A stretch of 64,000 nt of DNA from Thiohalophilus thiocyanatoxydans (lineage in GTDB: Bacteria > Pseudomonadota > Gammaproteobacteria > UBA6429 > Thiohalophilaceae): contig NZ_SOQX01000001.1 in NCBI RefSeq assembly GCF_004366735.1, forward strand, positions 248,001 through 312,000, in the 5' to 3' direction. Shown here in pieces: positions 52,932 to 54,881 of this stretch; within the stretch, counting starts at the first letter, position 1, and every line of letters starts with the position of its first letter. The notes under the pieces are model-generated. The model did not search any database, was not told where the DNA came from, and saw only the letters and a program-made list of their open reading frames with translations. The translations under genes and the position numbers were made by a program.

Positions 52932-53246
52932 TTACTTGACCTGGACCGTCAGGGAGTCTTTCTCTCCCTTGTTGTCGACCCAGCTGATGGACACGTCATC
53001 GCCGGATTTGCCGCCGGTGAACTCGTAAGAGAGATACGGGTTCTTGGAGACGGCCGGTCCCCACTGCGCCAGCACAACTTCCTTGCCGTTGTGTTCGCAG
53101 GTCACTTCCTGGATGTAGTGTGCCGGGATCTTGTCGCCGGTTTTCTCGTCCTTGCGCAGACCGGTTTCCATAACGTGCGTAATCAACGACTTGACTGTAA
53201 CGGTGTCCCCCTTGAGGGTCGCCCGGGCTCGGATACTCTTAGCCAT
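52932..53246 (-). CDS. soxZ: sulfur-oxidation carrier subunit SoxZ
   Basis: 104-residue partner of SoxY, forming the SoxYZ heterodimer that carries sulfur intermediates in the periplasmic Sox pathway. Family blocks: SIRARATLKGDTVTVKSLITHVMETGLRK, HYIQEVTCEHNGKEVVLAQWG, and VSKNPYLSYEFTGGKSGD. It has no own signal and is exported with SoxY. GAGG upstream of the ATG at 53246. Last gene before a terminator. No soxXA, soxB or soxCD is in the window. Confidence 0.95.
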   Translation of the reverse strand: MAKSIRARATLKGDTVTVKSLITHVMETGLRKDEKTGDKIPAHYIQEVTCEHNGKEVVLAQWGPAVSKNPYLSYEFTGGKSGDDVSISWVDNKGEKDSLTVQVK

Positions 53247-53288: not shown

Positions 53289-53753
53289 TTAGCCGCCACA
53301 ACCGCCGATAGTGACTTTGACCTCTTTGCGGGCCGAGTAGGCCTTGCCGCCGGCCTTGACCACGGCAACCACATTGGAGGTTTTGGCCATCTTGATGCGG
53401 GTTGAGACAAAGCCTTTGGCGTTGTCGGCCAGCTTGAAGTTGGCCGCCAGGGGCGTGCCGTTCTTCTCGGCGATGATAGCGATTTCCTCGATGCCGGCGA
53501 TGCCGGAGGTGATGGAAACCGGGACCACGGCGCCGTTTTCGGCGATGTCCGGGGCCTTGATGCTGATGTCATCGGTCGGCTCGGTCTGGGCGGTGCCAAA
53601 CAGGTCCTTCATGGCCGTTTGCATATCTTCGGTTTCGAATGCCCGCTTGGGCCAGGCGGCCATGACCGCACCGGGGGTGAGCAGGCCGGCGCCGACGGCG
53701 ACCGCGACGGTGCTACCGGCCAGGCTGCCCTTGAGAAAAGTTCTACGTTGCAT
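53289..53753 (-). CDS. soxY: sulfur-oxidation carrier protein SoxY
   Basis: 154-residue carrier whose C-terminal cysteine holds thiosulfate-derived sulfur; the tail reads VTIGGCGG, the hallmark GGCGG. A twin-arginine signal, QRRTFLKGSLAGS, exports the SoxYZ complex. Other blocks: DISIKAPDIAENGAVVPVSI. GGAGGAG upstream of the ATG at 53753. Followed by soxZ after 42 bases. A standalone soxYZ pair often occurs in organisms with the Dsr pathway. Confidence 0.96.
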   Translation of the reverse strand: MQRRTFLKGSLAGSTVAVAVGAGLLTPGAVMAAWPKRAFETEDMQTAMKDLFGTAQTEPTDDISIKAPDIAENGAVVPVSITSGIAGIEEIAIIAEKNGTPLAANFKLADNAKGFVSTRIKMAKTSNVVAVVKAGGKAYSARKEVKVTIGGCGG

Positions 53754-53928: not shown

Positions 53929-54216
53929 CTAGTCGTGAGCGATCGGTTTGTCGGTAAACAGGTAGTCTTTCAGCTCGTCATTGAGTTTGTCGTCGTGGCG
54001 ACGGATCCATTCCAGGACCATGGCGGCATGCTCCTTCTCTTCATCGCGATTGTGTTTGAGAATCGCACGCAGCGCATCGTCCTTGCAGGCATCCATGCGC
54101 TGGTTGTACCAGTCGACTGCCTCCAGCTCTTCCATCAGCGAGACAATGGCGCGATGCATGTCCCGGGTTTCGTCAGAAAGCTCGTCAATCGCTTCGTGAA
54201 AACCTTCATTTGCCAT
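53929..54216 (-). CDS. encapsulated-ferritin-type (EncFtn) ferroxidase, without an encapsulin partner
   Basis: 95-residue two-helix ferritin-like protein closely resembling the Rhodospirillum EncFtn: HRAIVSLMEELEAVDWYNQR and HNRDEEKEHAAMVLEWIRR. Ferroxidase ligands E29, E32, E59, E62 and H63 and the conserved W36 are all present. Such proteins form annular decamers that oxidise Fe(II) but need a capsid to store it. It ends at YLFTDKPIAHD, with no encapsulation peptide, and no encapsulin shell gene is nearby. A Fur-like box lies just upstream. Confidence 0.88.
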   Translation of the reverse strand: MANEGFHEAIDELSDETRDMHRAIVSLMEELEAVDWYNQRMDACKDDALRAILKHNRDEEKEHAAMVLEWIRRHDDKLNDELKDYLFTDKPIAHD

Positions 54217-54243: not shown

Positions 54244-54262
54244 AATCATGATTATCACATTA
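54244..54262. promoter_or_regulatory. possible Fur box upstream of the EncFtn gene
   Basis: AATCATGATTATCACATTA on the plus strand matches 13 of 19 positions of the Fur consensus, including an intact GATAATCAT core on the minus strand. It overlaps a candidate -10 (GATAAT), 28-46 bases before the ATG. It supports iron control but is not decisive. Confidence 0.35.
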
Positions 54263-54542: not shown

Positions 54543-54881
54543 TTACAGCGTGATTACCTGATCCGGCATATTGCCGGCCAGTGCGGCATACAGATCAGGA
54601 AAACAGCCAATACCGGCACCGTTGACCAGTTTGTCGTCGATCTGGCGCTCGTAGCAGCATTTGTCACAACCCATCAACAGGATGCCCTGCTCCTCGGCCA
54701 CTTTGGCCAGACGTTCGCCAATCGCATCACCCTTGACGAGTACATAGTTATTGTCCTCAAAAAAGAACATACCGACAACCTCGACACCATGGCCTTGTTG
54801 TTCCAGTTGCGGAAGGATCATCTGGGCGAGTTTGTAGGAGACAGTATGTCCCTGCGAGGAAAAGATATAAGCGACTTTCAT
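54543..54881 (-). CDS. DsrE-family sulfur-relay-like protein
   Basis: 112-residue protein of the DsrE/DsrF fold: MKVAYIFSSQGHTVSYKLAQ at the start, then VEVVGMFFFEDNNYVLVKGD. Cysteines at 72, 75, 76 and 93 (GCDKCCYER and GIGCFPD) may carry sulfane sulfur. Related DsrE-like proteins accompany sulfur-oxidation genes. The start at 54881 has GGGAG upstream. It stands upstream of the small membrane protein, EncFtn and soxYZ on one strand. Confidence 0.8.
   Translation of the reverse strand: MKVAYIFSSQGHTVSYKLAQMILPQLEQQGHGVEVVGMFFFEDNNYVLVKGDAIGERLAKVAEEQGILLMGCDKCCYERQIDDKLVNGAGIGCFPDLYAALAGNMPDQVITL

Follow-up and report, generated by a model that had tools for sequence, protein, structure and literature searches.

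Among described relatives of the protein reported here, EncFtn of R. rubrum (Rru_A0973, PDB 5DA5) acts on its own as a ferroxidase without mineralizing iron, in agreement with the first-pass annotation of the DNA studied here, and in vitro the isolated protein aggregated while iron precipitated (PMC5012862). He et al. 2016 set apart a "Non-EncFtn" group (PMC5012862). A 2024 review terms this type "s-FLP", leaves its encapsulation open, and lists NE0167 of Nitrosomonas europaea (PDB 3K6C) as a short FLP that has no targeting peptide and forms decamers; the 3K6C structure comprises 10 chains. Neither a biological role for NE0167 nor an activity for any shell-free EncFtn member was found in the literature searched. 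Archaeal Flp-encapsulin fusions often share operons with rubrerythrins (PMC8346489), and a 2021 survey assigned all EncFtn-encapsulin fusions to Archaea. The aerobic-type rubrerythrin system RBR-RFO-DUF3501 was described by Cardenas et al. 2016 (PMC5114695); their text on rbr-RFO-DUF3501 contains no encapsulin-related word, and a figure legend lists "hypothetical" neighbours.

We analysed a stretch of 64,000 nucleotides (the window) from Thiohalophilus thiocyanatoxydans, in which an EncFtn gene is flanked by a SaoD/DsrE-family gene and soxYZ (Table 1). The gene begins with ATG, and its product matches both PF22277 (EncFtn-like; E 4e-42, 142.3 bits, curated cut-off 27) and TIGR04535 (encapsulin-associated ferritin-like; 129.4 bits, cut-off 125). 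NE0167 is the best PDB match. It is also 95 aa long, ~75% identical over its full length, and its tail (YLFTNKPIAHE) is of the same kind and likewise devoid of a targeting peptide.

Table 1. The EncFtn gene and its neighbours in the window.
Feature	Position	Strand	Basis and remarks
EncFtn-like protein, 95 aa, no targeting peptide, ends YLFTDKPIAHD	53929..54216	-	PF22277, TIGR04535, likeness to 3K6C, dN/dS
SoxY, thiosulfate carrier	53289..53753	-	Downstream of EncFtn, 175-nt gap; TIGR04488, 176 bits
SoxZ, downstream of SoxY	52932..53246	-	TIGR04490, 135.6 bits; synteny in same genus only
SaoD/DsrE-family protein, upstream of EncFtn	54543..54881	-	NF040913, 174 bits; residues 34-145 of a longer ORF

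Comparison with the orthologue from the same genus, again of 95 aa, gave dN 0.036 and dS 0.749 (dN/dS ~0.05); the gene is intact and under purifying selection. Truncation of a longer cargo protein was considered and rejected, given the equal length of the orthologue and the low dN relative to dS. The protein ends in PIAHD, and no targeting motif is visible 3' of the stop codon in any of the three frames, which bears out the earlier claim that a targeting peptide is absent. No signal peptide is evident. With an EncFtn core, ~95 residues and a short C terminus free of a targeting peptide, the protein falls into the Non-EncFtn / s-FLP type and is closest to 3K6C.

Iron sites were mapped using a two-residue offset to R. 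rubrum EncFtn and the site assignments of PMC5012862. The ferroxidase centre consists of E30, Y37, E60 and H63 (aligned to E32, Y39, E62 and H65 of R. rubrum); also present are E29/E32 at the entry and H55/E59/E62 at the putative exit. The first-pass annotation had given E29, E32, E59, E62, H63 and W36 as the full ligand set. Its reading of fold and ligands was upheld, as the PF22277 match is strong and all iron sites are kept; the list itself mixed residues of different sites, omitted E30, E60 and Y37, and included W36, which lies outside the listed ligands and is Leu in NE0167. The core and the ferroxidase, entry and exit residues match those of R. rubrum EncFtn and other encapsulin cargo ferritins, whereas the long tail and targeting peptide of those proteins are both missing here. 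Across 164 shell-free and 16 shell-linked copies, the residues of all three sites are nearly invariant.

The genome, 2.9 Mb on 15 contigs and with a completeness of 100, holds one EncFtn gene. A profile search for family-1 encapsulin (PF04454) returned no match in this genome, with controls positive, nor in the 40 family genomes screened; this absence refers to family 1, the family-2 profile (PF19307) being silent in all control genomes. The phage capsid profile PF05065 also found nothing in the organism's own genome. A search of the rest of the genome for an encapsulin had been suggested as a check, and with completeness rated at 100% it yielded no PF04454 match. Because the protein lacks a targeting peptide and no family-1 encapsulin is encoded elsewhere, its role probably lies outside a shell, as first claimed.

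The frequency of this arrangement was assessed in a sample of 369 genomes of the same class, taken to be Gammaproteobacteria; the EncFtn of one of them (G286) is identical to that of Methylotuvimicrobium buryatense 5G. EncFtn occurred in 100 (a count that leaves out a weak 27-bit PF22277 match in G126, removed by hand), and 81 of these had no encapsulin. Encapsulin was found in 19/369 genomes, every one of which (19/19) also encoded EncFtn; four of these shell genomes (G053, G234, G274 and G284) carried a second, shell-free copy. Since most EncFtn genomes lack encapsulin, the shell-free protein is the commoner form in the class as sampled. It is an ordinary and previously described state, and to that extent the first-pass interpretation was overstated.

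The two forms differ at the C terminus. Among the copies read, a targeting-type motif was present in 15/16 shell-linked and 0/164 shell-free proteins. Conversely, a His within the last eight residues was seen in 157/164 shell-free and 0/16 shell-linked copies, and in 70/76 when only the class sample, assembled without regard to similarity to the window protein, was counted. Shell-linked tails are long and unlike the shell-free ones. In a tree of 91 columns with few supported forks, shell-free and shell-linked labels were strongly grouped; a tree holding all shell-free rows together was not rejected (p-AU 0.588), which with so few columns is no proof of a separate clade. Two individual loci are recorded here. 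One encodes an EncFtn with a Lys/Ala/Pro-rich tail in a genome without encapsulin (L122 7899-8267, G113:C20). At the other, a single open frame joins EncFtn and an encapsulin domain, in this class (L100 5483-6958, G234:C227).

The genes surrounding EncFtn were compared among relatives. DUF3501 was found <1 kb from shell-free EncFtn in 21 genomes, which belong to 17 families, where ~0.1 would be expected for random placement, and 20 of the 21 copies were within 300 bp. The usual order is ispA'-rbr-rfo-EncFtn-DUF3501 with mostly short gaps, so that in many relatives the genes of the RBR-RFO-DUF3501 system (Pfam domains Rubrerythrin, CCG-domain Fe-S protein and DUF3501) enclose EncFtn. EncFtn and DUF3501 also tend to occur in the same genomes (odds ratio 4.0, p 2e-7, uncorrected for relatedness), and the rbr-linked copies do not form one clade in the tree (18 changes). 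Among the open-access papers searched, none mentions DUF3501 along with either EncFtn or "encapsulated ferritin"; the linkage to the rubrerythrin cluster was not found described earlier, and it is this aspect that merits follow-up.

Other peroxide-defence genes also occur beside shell-free copies. EncFtn is flanked by peroxiredoxin and thioredoxin reductase at two loci (L070, L079), precedes peroxiredoxin and glutathione reductase at three (L092, L185, L227), and follows catalase at three more (L119, L124, L161), with glutathione reductase nearby in two of the latter. At L119 (7986-10712), next to the shell-free EncFtn, a divergent OxyR-like gene scoring below the OxyR cut-off comes after the catalase. 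The copy of Methylotuvimicrobium buryatense 5G adjoins peroxiredoxin and glutathione reductase genes. Altogether, recognised peroxide-defence neighbours were found at ~33/164 shell-free loci and none at ~130/164. These neighbourhoods suggest peroxide-defence proteins (rubrerythrin, peroxiredoxin, catalase) as candidate partners, not a hidden shell.

Removal of Fe2+ under oxidative stress is the most likely function, because the iron sites are conserved, a shell is lacking, storage could be provided by other proteins and relatives carry peroxide-defence neighbours. The window EncFtn is thus probably a soluble, shell-free ferroxidase of the iron/peroxide stress response and not an iron store. 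In this species it would assemble into a ring-shaped cytosolic decamer with ferroxidase centres at the subunit interfaces. Fe2+ would be oxidized with O2 or H2O2, leaving less of it for Fenton chemistry, while rubrerythrin, peroxiredoxin and catalase would remove peroxide. Storage would fall to other proteins, here bacterioferritin. Iron precipitation and aggregation of the kind seen with R. rubrum EncFtn alone would be harmful if they occurred in the cytosol. We infer the same role in this species, where the gene lies beside soxYZ; points against a detoxifier are that this EncFtn adjoins sox and DsrE-type genes, not rubrerythrin genes or a peroxidase, and that recognised peroxide-defence neighbours are missing at most shell-free loci.

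A more specific proposal, which we advance tentatively and hold at somewhat below even chances, adds shell-free EncFtn to the aerobic-type rubrerythrin system as a fourth, so far undescribed member (ispA'-rbr-rfo-encFtn-DUF3501). It would be a ferroxidase of the cytosol that joins rubrerythrin in defence against peroxide, and in some lineages, this one included, it would have left the cluster and act in trans. The genome does contain all three RBR-RFO-DUF3501 genes, but its EncFtn, unlike that of relatives, is neither in nor beside their cluster. The ispA'-rbr-rfo-DUF3501 cluster is on another contig, and the 159 bp from rfo to DUF3501 hold no EncFtn. This cluster (L239 931-4980, contig C3) can be set beside those of the same-family loci L058 and L061, which have EncFtn between rfo and DUF3501.

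The setting of the gene itself raises the alternative of an iron or redox accessory of the Sox/DsrE locus that serves sulfur oxidation. EncFtn shares a strand with the flanking SaoD/DsrE-family gene and soxYZ, the gap to soxY has no reported terminator-like site on that strand, and the sox link is kept in the one same-genus genome compared. By tblastn, however, SoxY was beside EncFtn solely at L054 and L055, so that the link is conserved within the genus only; no SoxY, SoxZ or DsrE homologue was found beside EncFtn at other loci, nor a SaoD/DsrE-family gene beside the same-genus orthologue (L055). The N terminus of SoxY is of the exported-protein type and its site of action is the periplasm, whereas EncFtn has no evident signal peptide. 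We consider this accessory role unlikely, and a Sox-linked function was rejected as a trait of the EncFtn family, the link being restricted to the genus. A Fur-box-like site (13/19) was noted at 54244-54262, 27 nt upstream of the EncFtn start codon. It is absent from the same-genus orthologue, and enrichment in the family was unclear (mean best score 10.4 vs 10.0 for shuffles and control genes). Fur control is not claimed, the site being neither conserved in the genus nor enriched in the family.

Equally doubtful is a function as iron donor or carrier, in which EncFtn would oxidize iron and hand it on, either to bacterioferritin or to a di-iron enzyme (rubrerythrin, for example), and would not be a detoxifier. 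Linkage to rubrerythrin, itself a di-iron enzyme, is consistent with such a role, and the conserved His close to the C terminus is a potential metal ligand. The genome gave three ferritin-family matches, and the one read resembles bacterioferritin and is directly preceded by a ferredoxin-like ORF (both named by eye from sequence). EncFtn is, however, also linked to catalase and thiol peroxidases, none of them di-iron enzymes, and a transfer partner is not known. That the protein is instead cargo of an unrecognised shell, bound via an undefined signal in its last 10 residues, appears very improbable: the tail is conserved and the 2024 review leaves an undefined binding sequence in a short tail possible, but neither the 81 class EncFtn genomes nor the organism's own has a PF04454 match, PF05065 is missing from the latter, and the tails of shell-linked copies are long and dissimilar, 15/16 bearing a targeting motif. 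Family 2 falls outside this argument, as PF19307 matched no control genome.

Studies of EncFtn have dealt with it as the cargo that encapsulin iron stores enclose, and most EncFtn genomes in the class sampled contain no encapsulin. Its association with peroxidases and with the rubrerythrin cluster offers a direct, testable function for EncFtn and could help to explain DUF3501.
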